From Geopseudomonas sagittaria (GTDB lineage Bacteria; Pseudomonadota; Gammaproteobacteria; Pseudomonadales; Pseudomonadaceae), in assembly GCF_900115715.1 (NCBI RefSeq), contig NZ_FOXM01000012.1, positions 1-64,000 on the forward strand: a stretch of DNA of 64,000 nt, in the 5' to 3' direction. Both the position numbers and the translations under genes were made by a program. The notes below the pieces were generated by a model. The model was given only the letters and a program-made list of their open reading frames with translations. It had not been told where the DNA came from and did not search any database. Positions 31,233 to 40,975 of this stretch are shown here, one piece after another. Numbering within the stretch: the stretch's first letter is position 1; each line of letters begins with the position of its first letter.

Positions 31233-31427
31233 TCAGGCGCCGTGGCACTTCTTGAACTTCTTGTTGCTGCCGCATGGGCAGGGATCGTTGCGGCCGACTT
31301 CCTTCAGCGGGTTGCGCACCGGCTCCTGATGGCCGTGGTTGCAGTGCGGGCCGTGGACGTGGGGTTCGTGGTGATGGTCATGGTCGTGGTTGCAGTCGGG
31401 GCCATGCACATGGGCTTGCTGATTCAT
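31233..31427 (-). CDS. Small His-rich SEC-C metal-binding protein
   Basis: 64 residues. The first half has two His/Cys repeats ([14 protein letters not shown] and [12 protein letters not shown]). The C-terminus is a SEC-C zinc motif ([17 protein letters not shown]), the same as in the tail of SecA and YchJ. It probably binds Zn or Ni through both parts. It starts 3 bp after the LEA-type gene. Its SEC-C codons share 17 consecutive bases with the target used by the nearby genomic island. Confidence 0.82.
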
Positions 31428-31430
31428 TAC

Positions 31431-31928
31431 TCACTCCGGAATGAAATCGCCGGGAACAATCTCGCCGCTGCGTGCCAGCTGGACGCGGCGGCCGAACATC
31501 AGCCCGGTCTTCACTTCGCCCTCGAGGCGATAGCGAATCGGTTTGTCGGGCTTCTCCAACAGTTTGACGATGTATTTCATGTGCCGCCAGAGGTTGGTGT
31601 GCACCGGCACCTCGAATTCCTCATGTCCGTGGGCCGGAACGGTGAACCAGGTAGCGGATTCGCCGCTTGCCAGCTTCACCTCGTTGAGGAAAACGGTGTA
31701 AACGAGTCCGCGTATCGGCAGGCTCACGTCGTTGGGGTTGTCGACACGAAAGCGCAGCAGGAACTCCTGTTCCAGCAGGCGCGCACGCACCACCTCGACG
31801 TGGGCCAGTTGCACATCGGGATCCTTGAAGCCACCGCCCATCCAGGTGGCGCAGCCTCCGAGGCTGGCGCCGCCGCACAGGAGCAGCAGCAGGCCGAGGT
31901 TTCTTATTAGTGGTGCCGGAAAAAACAT
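31431..31928 (-). CDS. LEA type 2 family lipoprotein
   Basis: 165 residues from the ATG at 31928 with GGAG upstream. A lipoprotein signal (LGLLLLLCGGASLGGC) precedes a WHy/LEA14-like domain: FLLRFRVDNPNDVSLPIRGL followed by YTVFLNEVKLASGESATWF. Such proteins are periplasmic and associated with desiccation or envelope stress; the exact role is unknown. It is first in a three-gene operon with the SEC-C and DUF2489 genes. Confidence 0.83.
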   Translation of the reverse strand: MFFPAPLIRNLGLLLLLCGGASLGGCATWMGGGFKDPDVQLAHVEVVRARLLEQEFLLRFRVDNPNDVSLPIRGLVYTVFLNEVKLASGESATWFTVPAHGHEEFEVPVHTNLWRHMKYIVKLLEKPDKPIRYRLEGEVKTGLMFGRRVQLARSGEIVPGDFIPE

Positions 31929-31972
31929 GCCATGACTCCATCCGATGCCCGAGTGTAACAATCACATATCAG

Positions 31973-32056: not shown

Positions 32057-32638
32057 TTGAGCAATCTTCTTGAAGTGGCCTTCGCCGGTGAGCTGGTTCC
32101 CGGTGCCGATGCGGCGCAGGTCAGGGCCAATCTGGCGCGGCTGTTCCAGGCCGATCCGCAGCGTATCGCCGCGCTGTTCTCCGGGCGGCGGATCGTCATC
32201 AAGAGCAATCTGGATGCCGAAAGTGCGGAAAAGTATCGCCTGACCCTCGAGCGCGCCGGCGCGCGAGTCGAGGTCAGTCCGGTCGGGCCGGTCGAGGTGG
32301 TCGCCCCGGTAGCCGTGGCTCCGGCAGTCGCAGTCCCGCCGCCAGCGGTCGTCGCGCCCGCCGAGCCGGTGACGACGCCCACGCCTCCCGGCGCGTTCGC
32401 CGCCCTCAAGGTGGCGCCGCGCGACGAATACATGGCGGCGTTTCGCGATGTCGCCGCGCCGGACTTCGGCCTGGCGCCGGTCGGCGCCGACCTGCAGGAC
32501 CAGCGCCCTGCACCCGTGGCGCCGGCACTGGACCTGAGTCAGTTGAGCGTGGCGCCGGTGGGCAGCGACATGGGCCAGGCCAAGGCGCCGCCGGCGGCCC
32601 CGCCGCCGGATACCTCGTATCTGCAGCTGCTGGACTGA
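32057..32638 (+). CDS. Hypothetical Ala/Pro-rich protein
   Basis: 193 residues starting at TTG, chosen because CAGGAG lies 6 nt upstream and no ATG or GTG fits. The first 75 residues look globular (ELVPGADAAQVRANLARLF, SGRRIVIKSNLDAESAEKY), like a small ferredoxin-fold domain. The rest is a Pro/Ala/Val linker with short conserved blocks ending in DTSYLQLLD. I do not recognise a characterised family. It is the last gene before the genomic island. Confidence 0.7.
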   Translation: MSNLLEVAFAGELVPGADAAQVRANLARLFQADPQRIAALFSGRRIVIKSNLDAESAEKYRLTLERAGARVEVSPVGPVEVVAPVAVAPAVAVPPPAVVAPAEPVTTPTPPGAFAALKVAPRDEYMAAFRDVAAPDFGLAPVGADLQDQRPAPVAPALDLSQLSVAPVGSDMGQAKAPPAAPPPDTSYLQLLD

Positions 32639-32663: not shown

Positions 32664-32692
32664 TCAGAGCAGGCTCGCGCAGCACTTCTTGA
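32664..32692 (-). pseudogene. Severed 3' end of the ychJ-like SEC-C gene
   Basis: On the minus strand this reads KKCCASLL followed by a stop. It is the natural C-terminus that should follow KF in the SEC-C motif of the ychJ-like gene now at 40355-40837. The island insertion detached it. Confidence 0.85.
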
Positions 32693-32711
32693 GGTGTTGC
32701 AACAGTACACT
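32680..32711. repeat. attL of the serine-integrase island
   Basis: CAGCACTTCTTGA (32680-32692) matches CAGCATTTCTTGA at 40383-40395 with one mismatch, then island sequence TGTTGCAACAGTACACT follows. The chromosomal side is the old ychJ tail. Confidence 0.85.
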
Positions 32712-32998
32712 ACTAATTCGTTGAAGCTGCCTCAGCCGGCAGGGAGGGGGAGGGTGCAGGTTGCCTTCCCGCCCACCCCACCCACCAGTGCCGACAGCAC
32801 GCCATTGCCCAGAGCGCCAGAGAGGTCATCAGGAGCGTTTCCAACCGTAGGGAGCTACCCTTTCCTATCCCAACACACGAACGTTGCACAGAACGCAGCA
32901 CAGGAGCTTGCAGCGGCTCTTGCACCTGCCGGCCGACAGGCTATACTTCAAATCTCGTCACCTGCTGGGTGAGGGTATTGTTCGCACTGAAAAAAGTG

Positions 32999-33046
32999 TT
33001 GACAAGATCCTGAAGCCCTCATATAATGCACTGGCTCTTCAAGAGC
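32999..33046 (+). promoter_or_regulatory. Consensus sigma70 promoter with palindromic operator at +1
   Basis: TTGACA (32999) and TATAAT (33022) are both perfect and separated by exactly 17 bp. The 13-bp palindrome GCTCTTCAAGAGC at 33034-33046 sits at the expected transcription start, a typical repressor position. No open frame of note follows. Confidence 0.75.
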
Positions 33047-33413
33047 GAAGCGCAGCGAGCGATGGGTTTGATCTTTAAGAGCTTCCTGATACCACTGATC
33101 TTCCAGAAGTACACCTTATATATAATATAATTACTCTAATCTAAGATCTTGACTTTGATCTTGATCTTATGGTGTGTAGTAACTACTCAATAGCAATATG
33201 CTATTGATATTATATCATTGAAAGATTTAAACTATCTGGTATATGTATTTGTGTTGTTATACCAGATTGATATATCCCTCTAGTGCTCCGCACTACGCCT
33301 GTCCCAATGCCATAACTTCGTTATGAGCGTCCCTCGCACAATTCTGGTGCAAACGCCCCTCCCTATAGATATCGAAATTACTGCCACCAACCGTGGTGCG
33401 GCTTACGACCCCA

Positions 33414-33593
33414 TCAGCTCGCCACCGCTGGCGACTTGGCAGATTTGTCCGTCTGTTCGTTCGTGCATACCACCAGTTCCAGCCCCCCAGCCATACCAAT
33501 ACAGACGCCCAGGAAGGCCCCAACGAAGCTGCTCCTGCAGCGTTCGCTAGTGCATAGCCACAACCATACCGGGCATATACGTAGAACACTCAT
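33414..33593 (-). CDS. Possible small membrane protein (59 aa)
   Basis: An ATG frame of 59 residues with a cysteine-containing hydrophobic segment (FVGAFLGVCIGMAGGLELVV) and a polar tail. AGGG lies 4 nt upstream. A GTG frame in another register covers the same DNA (33293-33589, 98 residues), so at most one is real. There is no homology I can name. Confidence 0.22.
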   Translation of the reverse strand: MSVLRICPVWLWLCTSERCRSSFVGAFLGVCIGMAGGLELVVCTNEQTDKSAKSPAVAS

Positions 33594-33845
33594 GCGCCCT
33601 GCTGGATCGCCTGATAACGACCATCAACCAATTGCAGCGACGACACTTCATCACAACTGTTGCCAACGCTGGTAGTGCAACTCGCAAGCGAAGCGCAGCA
33701 ATTCGCACGCTCGTTCGTGCATATCGTACTCACTCCAATACTAGGGTTTGGATAACGTGGCGGTGTTCGTGTAATAGCTAAATTACCGTTCGTCGGTCAA
33801 TGCATAAACAACTTGAAATTATATACTGATATGTGGTTACAGCTA

Positions 33846-33876
33846 TTGACATATACCAGTTCCATGTTAATATTAT
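33846..33876 (+). promoter_or_regulatory. Putative promoter within the island left arm
   Basis: TTGACA at 33846 and TATTAT at 33871 with 19-bp spacing. Transcription from here would run about 300 nt without a gene to the terminator at 34161-34184, so a small RNA is possible. Confidence 0.35.
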
Positions 33877-33907
33877 ATTGAAGATGAGGAAGTGAAAGTT
33901 TAATCAG

Positions 33908-34048
33908 TCATTCGTTCATTTCCGATCTTCCCTCGCTGTGGGGATGGCGAGGTAAATAGTGGAAGCGGCCCCATCCATGTCGTTCTCGTACAGCTGCCAG
34001 TATGTATTTCCACGAAACTGGCATTAATTCCAGAGCATACGATTCCAT
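33908..34048 (-). CDS. Possible small protein (46 aa), island
   Basis: An ATG at 34048 with AGGAG 5 nt upstream opens a 46-codon frame (MESYALELMPVSWKYILAA...). Composition is protein-like with aromatic residues and a basic/His tail, but there is no recognisable family. It is antisense to the possible small RNA between 33883 and 34184. Confidence 0.3.
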   Translation of the reverse strand: MESYALELMPVSWKYILAAVRERHGWGRFHYLPRHPHSEGRSEMNE

Positions 34049-34160
34049 AGGGGCTCCTCGCCCTGCAGGCAGCGTTTGCCGACGCTGGTTCGCATGTCCG
34101 CTAGTACATGTCTGCAATACTAGCCTCGATTTCCTCGTGTTCTCCAACACAAACATTTAG

Positions 34161-34184
34161 ACCAGCTCCGGCTGGTTTCTTTTT
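34161..34184 (+). terminator. Rho-independent terminator in island
   Basis: ACCAGC-tccg-GCTGGT followed by TTCTTTTT on the plus strand. It would end transcripts from the promoters at 32999 and/or 33846 before the zinc-finger operon. Confidence 0.75.
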
Positions 34185-34243
34185 GCCTACATTACATCAC
34201 CACCAATCACACTAATTATCCAGGATACACAGGAGCTATAACT

Positions 34244-34483
34244 ATGTCCCGAAAAGACTTCGCCGCAATCGACGCGGCAATCGACTACACCGCAGACCGC
34301 CACAAGTACAGCACCCACAAGACTTGCGTAGTATGCGGCACACCCTTCGAAGCAATCCGCTCAGATGCAGAAGTTTGCAGCCACAAGTGCACACAACGTC
34401 GTTACCGCAAACGTTTGCAAGCTCGCCTTGCACTAGAAGCAGCAGCAGCACGAGAGGAGCTCGACAATGCAACCCGCCATTGA
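34244..34483 (+). CDS. Small zinc-finger protein 1 (CxxC-x13-CxxxC)
   Basis: 79 residues with CAGGAG upstream. A zinc finger CVVC-x13-CSHKC is followed by an Arg/Lys-rich segment (TQRRYRKRLQARLALE) and a helical C-terminus. It is the first of five neighbouring proteins sharing this finger, which resembles FCS/YacG-type treble clefs. The basic stretch suggests nucleic-acid binding. Its end overlaps the next gene by 17 bp. Confidence 0.75.
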   Translation: MSRKDFAAIDAAIDYTADRHKYSTHKTCVVCGTPFEAIRSDAEVCSHKCTQRRYRKRLQARLALEAAAAREELDNATRH

Positions 34484-34673
34484 AATACAGGCAGCTTGCC
34501 TGCCCATTCCTGAAGGCTACTTCTCGGAAGTTGCCATTTGCCAGTGCTGCAAGCAGGCGATGCTTCGTGAACGCATCACCAAACGATATTGCAGCGACAA
34601 GTGCAAAGACAGGGCCTATTGGTATCGTCGCAAACTACGCGAACAGGAGATTCCACAAGATGAGTCAGAATAA
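34467..34673 (+). CDS. Small zinc-finger protein 2 (CxxC-x13-CxxxC)
   Basis: 68 residues. The finger CQCC-x13-CSDKC is followed by DRAYWYRRKLREQE, the same layout as the preceding protein. It overlaps both neighbours (17 bp upstream, 14 bp downstream), so the genes are tightly coupled. Likely nucleic-acid or protein binding; no characterised homologue recognised. Confidence 0.75.
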   Translation: MQPAIEIQAACLPIPEGYFSEVAICQCCKQAMLRERITKRYCSDKCKDRAYWYRRKLREQEIPQDESE

Positions 34674-34863
34674 AATCACGTACACACCGGAAGGTCTGGT
34701 AATGGTCGGTGCAGCATACCTGTTGAAAACAGGCTATTGCATCGATATCTGCATGGCAGGCCACCTTGTGAACAGTAACCTGATAGCCCGCACCACTGAC
34801 AAAGATCTGGATGAAATCATCCAACGTCATGCCGGCATTGAACAACAACTCAACCACACTTGA
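34660..34863 (+). CDS. Small hypothetical protein, island operon
   Basis: 67 residues from an ATG (MSQNKITYTPEGLVMVGAAY) that overlaps the end of zinc-finger gene 2. It has no cysteine finger; a central KTGYCIDICMAGHLV segment and a polar C-terminus (DEIIQRHAGIEQQL) are all that can be described. Position and overlap argue for a real gene in the zinc-finger operon. Confidence 0.65.
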   Translation: MSQNKITYTPEGLVMVGAAYLLKTGYCIDICMAGHLVNSNLIARTTDKDLDEIIQRHAGIEQQLNHT

Positions 34864-34881
34864 ACATAGCGAGAGAATATT

Positions 34882-35349
34882 ATGCAAACTAACAACAGCT
34901 TCACCTTCGATCCAAAACAGCTGGAAAAACTCATCGCTCACCGCGCATCTTGGTATGCCGCCCAGGAAGATACACACAATACCAAAGGCGCATTGGTGAA
35001 CATCTCCGAACCTTACCCCATGCTCGCATTGAAACGAGTGGTGGAGCTAACCAAGGCCGGTTATGAGCTGGCAGAAGATGCCCCATGCAATATCACTGGT
35101 GCATGGAGTTCAGTATATCTGCTTAAGCCCGCTGAAATGCAACAAGCCGAGATCGAAGAGATCAAGCGTAATGCCGAGATTGAATACCGTGCAAACCTTG
35201 AATCTGAGAAAGCCCGATACATCGAAGAACAGGCAGTGCGAATGCTCGCTGAGAAGAAAGCTCAAGCTGAGTTGAAACAAGCCGCACTCGATGCCAAAGC
35301 CCTTGAGCAGCTGAAGCGTGATTTGGCAGCACAGGTTGGTGGTGTATGA
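34882..35349 (+). CDS. Hypothetical protein with C-terminal coiled coil, island operon
   Basis: 155 residues. The N-terminal 85 residues look globular (EPYPMLALKRVVELTKAGYE, TGAWSSVYLLKP). The rest is a charged helix (AEIEEIKRNAEIEYRANLES) likely to be a coiled coil. I do not recognise a family. Its TGA overlaps the ATG of the next zinc-finger gene (ATGA), which indicates translational coupling. Confidence 0.75.
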   Translation: MQTNNSFTFDPKQLEKLIAHRASWYAAQEDTHNTKGALVNISEPYPMLALKRVVELTKAGYELAEDAPCNITGAWSSVYLLKPAEMQQAEIEEIKRNAEIEYRANLESEKARYIEEQAVRMLAEKKAQAELKQAALDAKALEQLKRDLAAQVGGV

Positions 35350-35462
35350 GTCGCCCTAGATTGAATCTGGTGTGCAAACACTGCAAGCAGCACTTCACGC
35401 ACTATCGTCGTCAAGATTTCTGCTGCCCAGACTGCCGCATAGCTGAGCGAGACGGTAAGTAA
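35346..35462 (+). CDS. Tiny zinc-finger protein 3 (38 aa)
   Basis: Only 38 residues, almost nothing but the finger: CKHC-x12-CCPDC, then RIAERDGK. The start overlaps the preceding stop by 4 bp. It shares the CxxC-x12/13-CxxxC spacing of its neighbours, so it is probably a genuine, minimal member of the array. Confidence 0.65.
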   Translation: MSRPRLNLVCKHCKQHFTHYRRQDFCCPDCRIAERDGK

Positions 35463-35565
35463 GAACACCTGAAAGCCCCGTCCCATGGGGTAGAACTAAA
35501 AGTGTCCCGATTCTCAGAATGTAACGCCCCTCAAGATTGAACCATCCAGTTCTGTGTCATCACGT

Positions 35566-35580
35566 GGGGCACAAGCCCCT
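35566..35580 (+). terminator. Weak hairpin between zinc-finger genes 3 and 4
   Basis: GGGGC-acaa-GCCCC followed by TTAT. It could attenuate transcription or define a separate downstream unit. Confidence 0.35.
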
Positions 35581-35605
35581 TATATCCATACCGAGGATTA
35601 TCCAA

Positions 35606-35806
35606 ATGAAAACTTGCTTCTGCAAGAACTGCGATGCCGTGTATATGGCAACTAAGGTGCGGCCCTTCTGCAGTGCAGCCTGTCGCTTTGCCTACGGGGT
35701 GAAACATCCCCGTTCAACAACATCCACATCAACACCAACAACATCACCAGCTAACCTTGATGGAGCATCACATGCAAACACAACCACAGAACACCAAAGC
35801 CTGTAA
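35606..35806 (+). CDS. Small zinc-finger protein 4
   Basis: 66 residues with GAGG upstream. The finger CKNC-x12-CSAAC (KVRPFCSAACRF, very YacG-like) is followed by a short basic stretch and a Thr/Ser/Pro-rich disordered tail. It overlaps the start of the large zinc-finger/HNH-like gene. Confidence 0.65.
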   Translation: MKTCFCKNCDAVYMATKVRPFCSAACRFAYGVKHPRSTTSTSTPTTSPANLDGASHANTTTEHQSL

Positions 35807-37043
35807 GCACTGCAACCAGCAGTTCACATATAAGAGCGCCAAAGCTCAGTTCTGTTCCGAGGCGCACAAGAAAGCGTTCTCAAGAGCGAGAACAGCCACC
35901 CTCGATAAGAAACGTAAGTACAGATTCGCAACTTCTGCATTCACATTCTTCCTAGCCAGTGCCGCCAAGCGTAGTGGAACAGTTGAAGTAATCCCGAATA
36001 CGCTTGATGAGCTGGTGAAGCTGCACGCTGTTTACAAATATTCGCTAGCTGCCAATGGTTACGGTGAAGACGACCAATTCAGTTTGTGCCACATCTTCCC
36101 GATTCAACACCCATTCTTCATCGGCACAATGCACGCTGATAACCTCGTCATCAGTTACCGGAATCTAAACGCCAAGCATGGGGCTAGTGTTGTTAACGCT
36201 AGCTCTGGTCACAAGATTGGCCGCATGACCCTCAATCCCAAGTGGGCAGTGTCTAGCGACACAAGTTCCAAGCTGGTTATTCAGAAGATCATTGATTACC
36301 TTGGTGCAGACTTCACTGCAACAATCGCCGTAAAACTCAAGCTACAGCCAACCACTCGTCAAGCTGTTATTGATTGGCTAACAGCCTGCACTGATCCCCG
36401 CGTCCCCTCCCTCGAAGTTATGCACGATCCCAACACAACCACAGTATCACTTACCAAACTCAAGTCAGAGATTAGCGGTAAGAGTGCTGGTGGATATCTG
36501 CCTGAAGCAGATTCGGCTGTTGAAGTGTTCATGCACGAATTGAAGCGCCTGTCAGCCTCTCGCCCATCACTGTGCAGAGTGGTCGAGCTTTGGGAATCAG
36601 TGATGCCATACATTAACCCACTATTCATTGATGTGTATTGGAGCAATCCTCGAAAGGGTGGCACGAAGGAAGAGTATGCAGACGCCTTGTCTATAGTCGC
36701 ACCACTTCAGGAGGCTCAGTTCCAGCTGCTACATGGTGGGTCAGTTGGAGAGTTCCTAACCGTGCTGGACACCTTCCTTGCACAAGCCGACAGCGCCAGC
36801 AATCCCGCTGAAACCCGCGCCACATCTACTGCTACTAAAGTTGTCCCGATTCTTGAGACTGATATTCCTGCCGAGATTGAACAGTCTAGTAGCGTGTTAC
36901 AGCCCTGCAATGTAGCTGATTGGGTCAAGGAACTTGACGCAGAATACGAAGCCTTCATGCGGGGCATGCCGGTATACAGCCCGCAGGCGTTGCCGTCACT
37001 TGGCTGGTCTGCAGCTCATCTGCACATGGAATCCCATGTGTAG
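35760..37043 (+). CDS. Zinc-finger plus HNH-like protein, island
   Basis: About 427 residues (start could also be ATG 35772, or TTG 35757). The N-terminus carries the fifth finger, CKHC-x13-CSEAH, where the last Cys is His. Residues about 110-150 read CHIFP...HADNLVISY..NAKHG, the H-N-N spacing of an HNH nuclease, but the usual first DH is CH and the closing CxxC is absent. The remainder has no known domain. It is the largest cargo gene and follows the zinc-finger operon. Nuclease or DNA-binding function is inference. Confidence 0.7.
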   Translation: MEHHMQTQPQNTKACKHCNQQFTYKSAKAQFCSEAHKKAFSRARTATLDKKRKYRFATSAFTFFLASAAKRSGTVEVIPNTLDELVKLHAVYKYSLAANGYGEDDQFSLCHIFPIQHPFFIGTMHADNLVISYRNLNAKHGASVVNASSGHKIGRMTLNPKWAVSSDTSSKLVIQKIIDYLGADFTATIAVKLKLQPTTRQAVIDWLTACTDPRVPSLEVMHDPNTTTVSLTKLKSEISGKSAGGYLPEADSAVEVFMHELKRLSASRPSLCRVVELWESVMPYINPLFIDVYWSNPRKGGTKEEYADALSIVAPLQEAQFQLLHGGSVGEFLTVLDTFLAQADSASNPAETRATSTATKVVPILETDIPAEIEQSSSVLQPCNVADWVKELDAEYEAFMRGMPVYSPQALPSLGWSAAHLHMESHV

Positions 37044-37271
37044 ATAAGTGAGTGATTCATGCTTCCTGCCTAAATACAACCTCCCTCATTTCTGCCCAAT
37101 TGGTTTAGCAAAACCGATCCTAGAGCACTCTTTTTTTAAAATGTTCCAGATGTGCAAGATGTAGCCCGCCCAGCTTGCAGCAGCATGCCAATGCAAGCCC
37201 CCAACCCCAGATGAAGCCCAGTTGCCGACAAACGGCATGCGCAGGGAGTCTCCTCAAGCACATAACAATGC

Positions 37272-37300
37272 TTGAACGTTCGTTCCAGCCTATGTACAAT
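37272..37300 (+). promoter_or_regulatory. Promoter of the small serine recombinase
   Basis: TTGAAC and TACAAT with 17-bp spacing, 42 bp upstream of the recombinase ATG. The spacer contains GTTCGTTCC, and AACGTT overlaps the -35, giving possible regulator contacts. Confidence 0.55.
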
Positions 37301-37342
37301 GGCGCCAAGCGTTGTTAAAGGGGCATTCCCCAGAGGGTCATC

Positions 37343-38044
37343 ATGGAAGTTGTTGCTTACTACCGAGTATCCACAAAGCGTCAGGGAGAGAGTGGCCTAG
37401 GTCTGGAAGCTCAACGGGAGTACGTCTCCACTGCTGCTGCTCAACATGGTTGGGTGGTGGTGGCTGAATACACTGATGTGAACGTGTCCGGCTCTGTCCA
37501 TCCTCTGGAGCGTGCTGAAGCTGCCAAAGCATTCACCCACGGTGTTCCTGTGGTAGTGGCGAAGCTGGACCGCCTCAGCCGTGACGTTGAACACATCGCC
37601 GGTCTGATGAAGCGTGCTGATTTCAAAGTGGCCACCATGCCAACAGCCAGAACCCTGGAACTGCACTTGTACGCAATGCTTGCCCAGCAGGAACGAGAGT
37701 TCATTAGCCAACGTACCAAGGAAGCCTTGAACAGCCTTGCCAAGCGTGCAGAAGCTGGGGACGTAGTAGCCCAGGGTAAGGTTGCCAATCGTGCTGAGTC
37801 GCTGGCCAAGGGTCGCACAAAGGCCAATCAGGAGAAGGGTGGTAATGCCACTAAAGCAAAGGCCACTTCGTTTGCCGAGAGCATCCGAGATACTGTAGAA
37901 CTGTGCGTTCTTCGTGGTACACATACCCTGCAAGGGGTAGCTGATTGCCTGAATGCCAAGGGCGTCACCACTAGTCGTGGTGGTAAGTGGTCCCCCATGC
38001 AAGCCAGTCGTGTGATGAAATCTCTTGGGCTGACGTTCTCCTGA
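37343..38044 (+). CDS. Small serine recombinase (resolvase/invertase type)
   Basis: 233 residues. The catalytic domain begins VVAYYRVSTKRQGESGLGLE with the nucleophile serine, then AKLDRLSRDVEHIAGLM and AQQEREFISQRTKEAL. A C-terminal helix-turn-helix follows (TLQGVADCLNAKGVTTSRGG), as in resolvases. It lacks the long domain of the island's large integrase. It may resolve cointegrates, invert a segment or help excision. It is transcribed from its own promoter. Confidence 0.9.
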   Translation: MEVVAYYRVSTKRQGESGLGLEAQREYVSTAAAQHGWVVVAEYTDVNVSGSVHPLERAEAAKAFTHGVPVVVAKLDRLSRDVEHIAGLMKRADFKVATMPTARTLELHLYAMLAQQEREFISQRTKEALNSLAKRAEAGDVVAQGKVANRAESLAKGRTKANQEKGGNATKAKATSFAESIRDTVELCVLRGTHTLQGVADCLNAKGVTTSRGGKWSPMQASRVMKSLGLTFS

Positions 38045-38089
38045 TTTTCTCACACGAAAGATGTCCCTGTATCCACCGGAGTATAGGTA

Positions 38090-38539
38090 ATGAAGTTTGT
38101 TATAGTGACAGCAGTCGCACTTTTTGCTACAACTGCGCAGGCTGAACTCGAAACAACTAAAAAGCTTGATGCTGCATATGCTATGTTCAGGTGTGCAGAG
38201 TTGTCAGAAGCTGGTGGCATAAATGAAAAATATTTATCTTCACGTATTGCTCTCAGAAAAAGAGCATTTGATTTGGCATTTAAAGCCAACCTTGGCGACT
38301 CCTCTACGAAGTCGAGGGATGAAGGTGATTGGCCTCTAGAGGTCGATGCGGCTTACTGGACGGGGTGGCTTGCTGGACAAGCAAATGCAGAAGTAACAAG
38401 GCAGTTCGGAGACCTGCCTTACGCTGAAGTTACTGCTAGATCTAATGGTCTTGATAGCCGCAAGTACAAATCCAAAATTAAACGTGCGCTCGATGCATAC
38501 AAGAAGGAAAGTTGTGAAGCTTTATCTGAGCTGGAGTGA
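38090..38539 (+). CDS. Small secreted/periplasmic hypothetical protein, island
   Basis: 149 residues with GGAG upstream. A clear signal peptide (MKFVIVTAVALFATTAQA) precedes a mature helical domain with two cysteines (MFRCAEL and KESCEAL), which may form a disulfide. No family is recognised. It is the only exported cargo protein in the island, sitting between the two recombinase genes. Confidence 0.72.
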   Translation: MKFVIVTAVALFATTAQAELETTKKLDAAYAMFRCAELSEAGGINEKYLSSRIALRKRAFDLAFKANLGDSSTKSRDEGDWPLEVDAAYWTGWLAGQANAEVTRQFGDLPYAEVTARSNGLDSRKYKSKIKRALDAYKKESCEALSELE

Positions 38540-38653
38540 AATATGGCGAACACTGCAACGGCCCAGATATTTGGCTGAATATCGGCATCTGCATGTGCCC
38601 CTGCCGGCCCTGCTTAACGGCTCGGAGAGAGCGACAGATATATTTTTCGCAGG

Positions 38654-38685
38654 AATAACAAAAGCCCCAACGAAGGGGCGTTATT
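38654..38685. terminator. Bidirectional terminator between convergent island genes
   Basis: GCCCC-aacgaa-GGGGC with flanking AATAAC/GTTATT pairing, between the secreted protein (plus) and the integrase (minus). Confidence 0.75.
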
Positions 38686-38714
38686 TCTGGCGGCGGGGCA
38701 GGGTTACTAGTAAT

Positions 38715-40340
38715 TCAGAATTCTTCTGGTGCGTATTGCAGCCTCTCGGCGTCCTCCTCGTTCATTTCGCCCTGCATCACCATTACATCAGCAAACTGTG
38801 CATTCGTAGTGTCCACGGCAACATCAGCACCAACATGCTCAACGTAGAACAGCGTTACGTGCAGTCGTCCTGTTGCATCAACAATCTGGTAGCGTTCATC
38901 ACTCCTGCCGCGCTTCTCCACCATAACCTTGATGTGCAGACGCTTCAGAAGGTTGTTGGCTGCACTACGTCCCCCGTAGCTCACTAGATCAAGTTTACGG
39001 AAGAAGTCTTCCTTGCTCACCACAACATCAGCGGCACGTGTTGCAATAAGCTTATTCTGCTCGTTCTCCAGCTGCTCCATTTCGGCTTCCATCTCGGCTA
39101 GACGCCTAGCACTAGCCCTGCTGGGAAACTCTTCGTGCAGCTCGTTCGTAATCGAATACTTCGCCTTCAGCTCAACGAGCCTGCCGTCAAGTATGGAGAG
39201 CTGCTTTGTCAGGCTGTTGGCGTTCCCCTGTACAAGTGACAGCGAATCAACTTTACTCAGAATTTCCTTGAAGATAGCCTCAGCACGACCATTACCAACA
39301 CGACCACTAGCGCAGGTTCCCTTAGTTTGGTTAGTGCAACGGTAGTAGCGTTTGCCGTGTTGCCCCATGATATGCATGGCACCCCCACAACGGCAGAAGA
39401 GCACGCCAGCCCACACGTTGAAATCTTTCGAAGTCTTGGTTACTGGTGCTACGCCTTCCCCACCATTTCTGGAAGATCTGGCAGCTTGTGCAAGCCACCA
39501 AGTTTCCTCACTCACGACAGCCGGAAAGTAGTTGGTGATTGGATCGCCTTGGGGCACACGCTTACCATCAACAAACTGGTGTGGCTGATACTCTCCGAGC
39601 ACGGCTCTGGATTCCAACATGTGCCGAATGGTTGACGCTGCCCACAGTCCGGTACTGTTCACCCGCTGTGCGGTGAAGGTAAGTATTCCCTGTTGGTTAA
39701 GTGTTGCAGCTATCGCCCTGCTGCCATATCCGGTAGTGCTCAGTTCAAACACTTGTCGTACAACATCAGCTCGCTCTGAAATGATGTTGTAAACATCTCC
39801 CTCCAGCACCAGCCAGTGTGGGCACAGCTTGCCAATCGGCTTCCCTGCACGTGCCTGAGTCTGCTTGTTACGCCACGCTGCCGAGACACGTTTACCCTTG
39901 GTGGCACTCTCCTCATGTGCACGAGCCATGTACGCAATGGACAGCATCAGCGAACCAGAGTCATCCCCCGGCCTGTACTCCCGCTTGTCGTTCAGCGTAA
40001 CGACGGTGATGCCCTTGGCCAGCAGATCCAGAAATTGTCGGAGGGCTGCATGCACGTGATCTCTCGACAACCTGTCCAGCGACTCAACGAGCAATGTACT
40101 GCCGCTGGGGATGCTCCCGTCCTCAACGTAACTCAGGAATCGCGCTAACTCTCCAGTGTCATCAAGGTGTTGGCCCTTGTACGCGCTACGCCCGGCATCG
40201 AAGAACAGGTATTCGTTGCTGTCGGCCAGCTCAAGCCCGTTCTGCTCGCAATACGTCTGTGCAAGCTCCACCTGTCGCCGGTAGGAATCACCGCCCGCCT
40301 GCTTGGCAGAGCTGAACCGAATGTACGAATACGCCTTCAC
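38715..40340 (-). CDS. Large serine recombinase (site-specific integrase of the island)
   Basis: 541 residues. The catalytic domain has YIRFSSAKQAGGDSYRRQ with the nucleophile serine, then ESLDRLSRDHVHAALRQF. The recombinase domain follows (GYGSRAIAATLNQQGI), with a zinc ribbon (FCRCGGAMH...YYRCTNQ...GTC) and a coiled-coil region (AEMEAEMEQLENEQNKL). This is the phiC31-type integrase architecture. The gene starts 15 bp from the interrupted ychJ stop, beside attR, as expected for the enzyme that inserted the island. Confidence 0.95.
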   Translation of the reverse strand: MKAYSYIRFSSAKQAGGDSYRRQVELAQTYCEQNGLELADSNEYLFFDAGRSAYKGQHLDDTGELARFLSYVEDGSIPSGSTLLVESLDRLSRDHVHAALRQFLDLLAKGITVVTLNDKREYRPGDDSGSLMLSIAYMARAHEESATKGKRVSAAWRNKQTQARAGKPIGKLCPHWLVLEGDVYNIISERADVVRQVFELSTTGYGSRAIAATLNQQGILTFTAQRVNSTGLWAASTIRHMLESRAVLGEYQPHQFVDGKRVPQGDPITNYFPAVVSEETWWLAQAARSSRNGGEGVAPVTKTSKDFNVWAGVLFCRCGGAMHIMGQHGKRYYRCTNQTKGTCASGRVGNGRAEAIFKEILSKVDSLSLVQGNANSLTKQLSILDGRLVELKAKYSITNELHEEFPSRASARRLAEMEAEMEQLENEQNKLIATRAADVVVSKEDFFRKLDLVSYGGRSAANNLLKRLHIKVMVEKRGRSDERYQIVDATGRLHVTLFYVEHVGADVAVDTTNAQFADVMVMQGEMNEEDAERLQYAPEEF

Positions 40341-40354
40341 CGCTTACACCCCCG

Positions 40355-40837
40355 TTACCTGTTCGTCAGGAGTGTATTGTGACAGCATTTCTTGAACTTC
40401 TGCCCGCTGCCGCACGGGCAGGGGTCGTTGCGCCCGGCCTTGAGCGTCACGGTCGGGTCGACGAAGTACCAGCGGCCATCCACCCGCACGAAATCCGAAC
40501 GCTCGCGATGGGCCTGCTCGCCGGCCGTATCCAGCCAGCGCGCGGTGAAGGTCACCTGGGCACGCTCCGGTGTGCCACCGAGCGGACGGTGTTCTTCCAC
40601 CGTGAGGCCCAGCCAGCGGCTGTGCGCACTCCAGGCGGCCATGGCCTCGCGTTCCAGCGCCGCCTGCTGGGCCGGCAGGGTGGTGGCCACCAGGTAGTCG
40701 ATCAGGCCGAGCACGTAGGCGCTGTAGCGCGAGCGCATCAGCGCCTCGGCGCTCTCCGGCAGGGCGCCGGCATGGTAGCGCCCGCAGCAGTCGGCCAGGG
40801 GCAGGGAGCTGCCGCAAGGGCAGGGAGAGAGGGTCAT
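40355..40837 (-). CDS. ychJ: YchJ-family SEC-C protein with island-replaced C-terminus
   Basis: 160 residues from the ATG at 40837. An N-terminal SEC-C-like motif ([19 protein letters not shown]), the YchJ/NTF2-like core ([25 protein letters not shown]) and a C-terminal SEC-C motif ([18 protein letters not shown]) are present. The last residues, HNTLLTNR, are encoded by island DNA; the native tail ASLL lies at 32664. All zinc ligands are retained, so the protein is probably still functional. Function of the family is poorly known. Confidence 0.88.
40371..40395. repeat. attR of the serine-integrase island
   Basis: AGTGTATTGTGACAGCA (island arm) then TTTCTTGA joins chromosomal ychJ sequence. 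The arm is an imperfect inverted copy (13 of 17 positions) of the attL-side arm at 32695-32711. Confidence 0.85.
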
Positions 40838-40975
40838 CTGGGTTGTCGCTACAGTCAAAAAAGAGGCGCTAGCCTAGCCGCAACGCGACAGGCTGCGCCA
40901 GCTGGCACATCCGTGACGCTCCGTCTTTACTTCTAGCATCGGCAATTAAGGACCGATGCCAAGGAGAACTGCAGC

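Follow-up and report, generated by a model that had tools for sequence, protein, structure and literature searches.

Attachment sites have been inferred on a large scale for serine recombinases, 6,207 of which are covered by the survey of Durrant et al. (2022; PMC10083194). According to that article, 82.8-88.3% of the recombinase clusters are predicted to target one to three gene clusters, and Mg-chelatase homologues are the target of 12.4% of the site-specific integrases. Targets are given there as disrupted genes, e.g., Mg chelatase or prolyl isomerase, and the word tRNA is absent from the main text. A second point of comparison is PLE 1 (phage-inducible chromosomal island-like element 1) of Vibrio cholerae, described as a small island that uses a large serine recombinase, with a phage protein as excision factor (McKitterick and Seed, 2018; PMC6002521). 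The present analysis concerns a small island within the end of ychJ, a protein-coding gene of Geopseudomonas sagittaria (Pseudomonadaceae), and the large serine integrase of 541 residues that the island encodes. The locus lies in the first 64,000 nucleotides of contig NZ_FOXM01000012.1 (assembly GCF_900115715.1), a stretch that is referred to as the window and to which all coordinates without a further label refer. The locus resembles the systems of Durrant et al. (2022) in enzyme class, in the way attB and attP can be deduced, in having a protein gene as target and, for one of their examples, in a TT core; it differs in its target, as ychJ is not named in the available passages. The likeness to PLE 1, drawn by description and without sequence comparison, is that of a small island with a large serine recombinase, whereas no satellite behaviour is known for the window island.

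The integrated island spans 32686-40388 (7,703 bp, no strand assigned) and is bounded by two copies of the 7-bp core TTCTTGA, at 32686-32692 and 40389-40395, the match extending to 12 of 13 bases when CAGCA[C/T] is counted in. Its GC content is 0.51, against 0.675 and 0.667 in the flanks. The ychJ gene (40355-40858, minus strand) encodes a YchJ family protein with a SEC-C zinc motif (Pfam YchJ_M-like, 6e-29; SEC-C, 3e-14; NCBIfam YchJ family, 5e-54) and ends with an island-encoded tail, HNTLLTNR. A detached native tail, KKCC-ASLL-stop, can be read directly at 32664-32690 (minus strand), and joining the outer flanks at TTCTTGA brings the native ychJ end back in frame. It is confirmed that 7.7 kb of mobile DNA sits at one exact point within the end of ychJ and that the reading frame of the gene is kept.

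The site without an island is found in the relatives. A ychJ search covered 27 related genomes, the window's own included, and gave long matches in seven other genomes of the genus (L003-L009). In all seven the site is uninterrupted, as the earlier note on this DNA had predicted: the left flank runs on into a colinear ychJ tail, a continuity that the alignments place to within about 45 bp. The nearest genome (G002) aligns in a single uninterrupted match, with 92.8% identity along 1,523 bp of the left flank and 92.2% along the 511 bp that comprise the joined tail and gene; its ychJ ends KKCCAALL-stop. The ending HNTLLTNR occurs in none of the seven, so that a natural ychJ end of this kind, which the note had named as a possible refutation, was not found. 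In 13 loci (L003-L015, L016 being left out) the codons that follow TGCTG are varied and never CACAAT. At an E-value of 1e-40, the integrase itself was found in only one of eight genomes of the genus, the window's own. An explanation without any insertion, which ascribes the different tail to natural variation or to an assembly join, could appeal to the genome being a draft of 44 contigs; given the colinear site in the seven relatives, and the same arrangement with both flanks in a sequence from a separate project (MT836130.1, see below), its probability is practically negligible.

From the two junctions, attL and attR can be delimited as well. Best dyad scores over 25 pairs are 15/25 for the joined attB and 17/25 for the joined attP, and both dyads are centred on the same base step, TT at 32689-32690 and 40392-40393. 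From this centre, spans of 25 bp on either side of the crossover are predicted at 32665-32714 for attL (tail-side junction, core 32686-32692) and at 40368-40417 for attR (ychJ/integrase-side junction, core 40389-40395). As a control, pairs of identical 7-mers that lie 500 or more bases from each other in the window were joined alike, with no more than three following partners taken per copy; 4 of 118,835 such pairs reach both dyad values at a common centre. Short attB and attP sites with a quasi-dyad about a common central dinucleotide, a trait of large serine integrases, are present here, the attB reconstructed for MT836130.1 being the exception. The earlier note had spoken of a fully specified integrase/att pair. 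The predicted attB and attP can indeed be reconstructed, but "fully specified" overstates what they amount to. A search of the whole genome with the joined attB 23-mer (up to three mismatches) returned only attR, with two mismatches, and a site on contig 29 (C29:135790-135812), with three, which coincides with another SEC-C motif. Separately, a SEC-C sequence at 31233-31427 (minus strand) with a KFKKC-like codon string resembles the attB core. Both SEC-C sequences are possible secondary integration sites, as their similarity to attB would allow.

The integrase gene (38715-40340, minus strand, GTG start) begins 14 bp past the ychJ stop, on the same strand. Its product has the Pfam domains Resolvase (PF00239, 1.1e-18, residues 3-163), Recombinase (PF07508, 4.3e-17) and a zinc ribbon (PF13408, 1.4e-6), the last two above the cut-off, and it matches PHROG 95 (integrase) at 6e-79. 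By these domains it is an ordinary large serine recombinase of a long-known enzyme family. Other traits of such enzymes in general are a coiled-coil motif within the zinc domain, recombination of attB with attP without helper proteins, and excision that depends on a directionality factor. The label "apparently new" in the earlier note therefore holds in so far as the nearest relative in the collections searched, encoded on MT836130.1, is about 53% identical, but not for the family. A scan of the viral collection gave no relative of the integrase and no match to the attR pattern, and a phmmer search of Protein Data Bank (PDB) chains with the integrase as query gave no match at an E-value of 1e-3.

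A second recombinase within the island is RES (37343-38044, plus strand), a small serine recombinase of 233 residues of the resolvase/invertase type (Pfam Resolvase, 1e-20; HTH_62, 2e-6). As RES has a catalytic domain of its own, and 13 of the 16 large-integrase loci among 32 sequences scanned (one of these having a large piece of an integrase, of 388 residues) also contain a small serine recombinase, it could be argued that RES and not the 541-residue enzyme made the insertion. RES, however, lacks the Recombinase and zinc-ribbon domains at the cut-off. It is the large integrase that abuts the ychJ junction in the window, in MT836130.1 and in a further genome (G312), and enzymes related to it are encoded right beside pieces of other genes. 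Insertion by RES is consequently regarded as extremely improbable.

Three other elements occupy the same point of ychJ. The first, found through its integrase, is on MT836130.1, a 12,681-bp unannotated sequence of an uncultured 'Bacteriophage sp.' from a human faecal sample, in which the element measures about 12.1 kb. Its integrase, 53% identical to that of the window over 99% of the query, comes after a ychJ body ending KKCCHNYLQAGLA, and the other end of the element is closed by a KKCCSSYF-stop tail. Past this tail follows a gene whose product shares 49% identity over 67 residues with the LEA_2-family protein encoded at 31431-31961 in the left flank of the window; for the window gene between this LEA_2 gene and the ychJ tail (32057-32638) no counterpart was found in MT836130.1. 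The attP half-sites are similar in the two elements, and the best dyad of the MT836130.1 attP scores 15/25 at the same centre. The MT836130.1 element differs from the window island in having an AbiJ_NTD4 gene and a tape-measure-like gene. The other two elements were found among 398 genomes of the family, three of which carry the altered ychJ end pattern TTCAARAARTGYTGYMACAAY: the window's own, G332 and G312. In G332, a degraded element found through R428, a putative zinc-finger protein of the island, the genes for P155, ZF89 and R428 (all described below) lie beside ychJ with the altered end; no integrase match was found in this locus at an E-value of 1e-3, and it contains what we take to be IS21-like genes. 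In G312 a broken integrase directly follows ychJ; it is 68% identical over residues 2-119, and a stop first interrupts its frame after 23 residues. All four elements conform to the ychJ-side half-site AGAARTGCTGYMACAATNNNCT, with the limitation that its first half doubles as ychJ sequence and that the fit of G312, which was found by an overlapping pattern, is partly by construction.

The 7-bp length of the common core, together with the presence of a second, small serine recombinase inside the island, could also fit a transposon or cassette whose entry was either random or due to homologous recombination through the 7-bp match, with the serine integrase as mere cargo. Such an entry is very unlikely, as the ychJ-side junction is at one point in four elements from different genomes (G312 having been found by the junction pattern) and the reconstructed sites have a common dyad centre. 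The island is very probably an integrative element that was inserted at attB in ychJ by its own large serine integrase. The corresponding claim of the earlier note is borne out by the junctions, the restored frame, the empty sites of the seven relatives, the integrase domains and the common dyad centre, and it is strengthened by the other elements at the same point. Five observations weigh against it. The joined attP 30-mer has no match in the assembled genome with up to three mismatches. The reconstructed attB of MT836130.1 has no clear central dyad, its score of 10/25 being tied with at least two other positions. A second core with a ychJ tail was sought in G332 and G312 and not found, so that both junctions are available only for the window and MT836130.1. 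The two full-length ychJ-targeting enzymes, those of the window and MT836130.1, are sisters in a 12-integrase tree with a support of 81/79, which is moderate and below the strong threshold. Lastly, according to the rule set out in PMC3783163, attP has its zinc-domain motif 5 bp farther from the centre than attB does; no excess was seen at shift 5, the maximum being at shift 6 for the window and at shift 1 for MT836130.1.

Insertion by the 541-residue integrase may be pictured as follows. One dimer of the enzyme would bind attB, within the terminal codons of ychJ that encode the SEC-C zinc motif, and a second dimer would bind attP on a circular form of the element. Cutting and strand exchange at the common central TT would then yield attL and attR. 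The ychJ-side half of attP would continue the frame with AAR-TGC-TGY, followed by CAC-AAT and a nearby stop, by which the zinc motif would be kept and a short tail gained, since the codons beyond the crossover come from this half-site. All four occupied ychJ genes do have the zinc-motif cysteines (CxC...KKCC), each with a short new tail, and these genes may remain functional. Because the integrase starts so close behind the ychJ stop on the same strand, host read-through from ychJ may express it. The island may still be mobile today. The locus is a clear example of an attP that continues the end of a protein gene.

With regard to novelty, the earlier note had stressed a target "rather than a tRNA". 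The target is a protein gene, and a tRNA search of the window found none, but protein-gene targets are reported by Durrant et al. (2022) and are not special. In open-licence PMC articles, searched without supplementary tables, no paper on ychJ or UPF0225 as an integration site was found. The novelty is modest: the integrase is a new member of its family, and the recurrent ychJ target was found in no paper searched. The locus adds an integrase/att pair and a target, the SEC-C codons of ychJ, that is well conserved in the Pseudomonadaceae examined and used repeatedly, and the attP half-site seen in four elements could guide tests of specificity.

Sparing of the target gene is not general among related integrases, as their neighbouring genes indicate. 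Integrases adjoining yifB/comM (L066-L069; 42-51% identical over the aligned part) resemble that of the window in lying at the junction and in having a small serine recombinase nearby, inside the 20-kb stretch examined. In all four loci the yifB frame beside the integrase spans profile positions 211/212 to 499, and its common start is presumably the Walker A motif. Judging by the one yifB piece beside each, these integrases seem to split their target, unlike the ychJ case, in which the gene is kept. In Stutzerimonas kunmingensis (L032) a 52% identical integrase lies beside a complete ferredoxin-reductase-like gene, and in G172 (L070) a glyoxalase-family gene is beside the element. Integrases at yifB or other genes are a natural comparison for studying how the choice of target changes.

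Other identities of the island were considered and rejected. A prophage was ruled out as a label because no capsid, portal or terminase was found among its 10 named open reading frames (ORFs), all of which were scanned against PHROGs. An integrative and conjugative or integrative and mobilizable element was set aside because relaxase and conjugation genes are absent in Pfam (8 of the 10 named ORFs) and NCBIfam (9 of 10) scans, and a transposon was dropped because the island holds no genes of that kind.

Relatives of R428 occur at 25 loci in 24 of the 398 genomes of the family, a count that takes in the window's own genome. Within roughly 20 kb round each locus, 20 of the 25 have P155, 17 a small serine recombinase, 13 a tape-measure-like protein and 10 a large serine integrase; these counts miss genes outside the stretch and possibly include unrelated neighbours. 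The fullest relative is in P. aeruginosa (NZ_CP137508.1; L105 3853-23173), where the backbone genes of the window island are found in the same order. Between P155 and ZF89 this element carries KPP10_Orf10-like, Dit-like, tape measure, baseplate hub and spike genes. It splits a pirin gene, its integrase is more distant, and its small recombinase is 55.6% identical to RES. No major capsid, portal or terminase family was recognised among its 21 listed genes from integrase to small recombinase, the two recombinases having been compared with Pfam and the other 19 with PHROGs. The window island is most simply read as a stripped member of this Pseudomonadaceae element family.

The tape-measure and other tail genes of the relatives hint, as an indirect pointer, at a phage satellite of the PLE or phage-inducible chromosomal island type, a kind of element that a helper phage induces and packages. 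A tentative proposal, which falls somewhat short of an even chance, is that the island belongs, in reduced form, to a satellite-like integrative family of Pseudomonadaceae that has not been described before. The backbone of this family would combine two serine recombinases, the large integrase and a small enzyme, with P155, several small zinc fingers and a nuclease of the zinc-finger/HNH-like type, and the family would use several conserved docking genes, including ychJ, where attP would be built to spare the frame. This is made slightly less likely by two proteins of the P. aeruginosa element: PHROG places the 'virion structural protein' families that they match (3e-40 and 1e-19) under head and packaging. 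Were the proposal right, elements with tail-type genes and no recognised major capsid, portal or terminase might modify helper-phage virions or borrow them, and the small recombinase might resolve multimers of a replicating circle. A 6-kb RepB plasmid, pA6H2 (NZ_MK376339.1, L104), has a weak, distant R428 relative and a small serine recombinase, which ties the element backbone to a replicating circle. A scan of the viral collection with the window's R428 gave no relative, and an alignment of six other R428 proteins found two contigs. No such element family was seen among the abstracts listed for serine recombinases, islands and satellites in open-licence PMC. This wider family, in which tail-type genes occur but neither a major capsid gene nor a packaging gene was recognised, is the likeliest source of new biology here. 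As to cargo, related elements encode an AbiJ_NTD4 protein (L035 5173-6021) and a DUF4062 protein (L070 4281-6806); the first being named for abortive infection, the pair suggests an anti-phage role, as far as family names can indicate.

R428 itself (35772-37043, plus strand) is a putative treble-clef zinc finger with an HNH-like H/N/N set. C11, C14, C28, H107, N124 and N133 are invariant in 22 aligned members, and these residues, together with weak HNH-type profile matches, are the reason for hypothesising a treble clef combined with an HNH-like nuclease active site. HNH and NinG family profiles are matched weakly, with Pfam NinG at an E-value of 0.01 or below in 2 of 22 members (best 0.005). 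The R428 profile reached a best E-value of 0.26 against the PDB, and an AlphaFold2 model from a three-sequence alignment had a mean predicted local distance difference test score (pLDDT) of 41.

The remaining genes of the island are all on the plus strand. ZF79 (34244-34483) is a small treble-clef zinc finger (DUF2116 treble clef, 8e-7), ZF68 (34467-34673) a small zinc finger that matches PHROG 8660 (HNH endonuclease, 4e-5) and ZF38 (35346-35462) another, matching PHROG 2308 (6e-4). P67 (34660-34863) is a small ORF without an NCBIfam match and with a best PHROG E-value of 0.042, and P155 (34882-35349) is the family backbone protein mentioned above. ZF89 (35537-35806, the start being probably at 35607) is a small zinc finger just before R428, and its homologues directly precede R428 in nine other loci (L070, L072, L073, L075, L076, L077, L102, L103 and L105). 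A 149-residue protein (38090-38539), whose start reads like a signal peptide, matches no family in Pfam, NCBIfam, PHROG or the defence library and is the sole copy among the 32 sequences scanned. The best E-value of the defence library against the island proteins was 0.053. Upstream of RES, no convincing res-like repeats were present in the repeat list, the sole test made, and an Rfam scan of the island at an E-value of 0.1 returned nothing. The left end (32693-34243) is without convincing genes and is AT-richest from 33086. A perfect sigma-70 consensus (32999-33027, plus strand; TTGACA-17-TATAAT, 12/12) heads a 1.2-kb AT-rich stretch there, which is possibly a non-coding RNA or a replication region.

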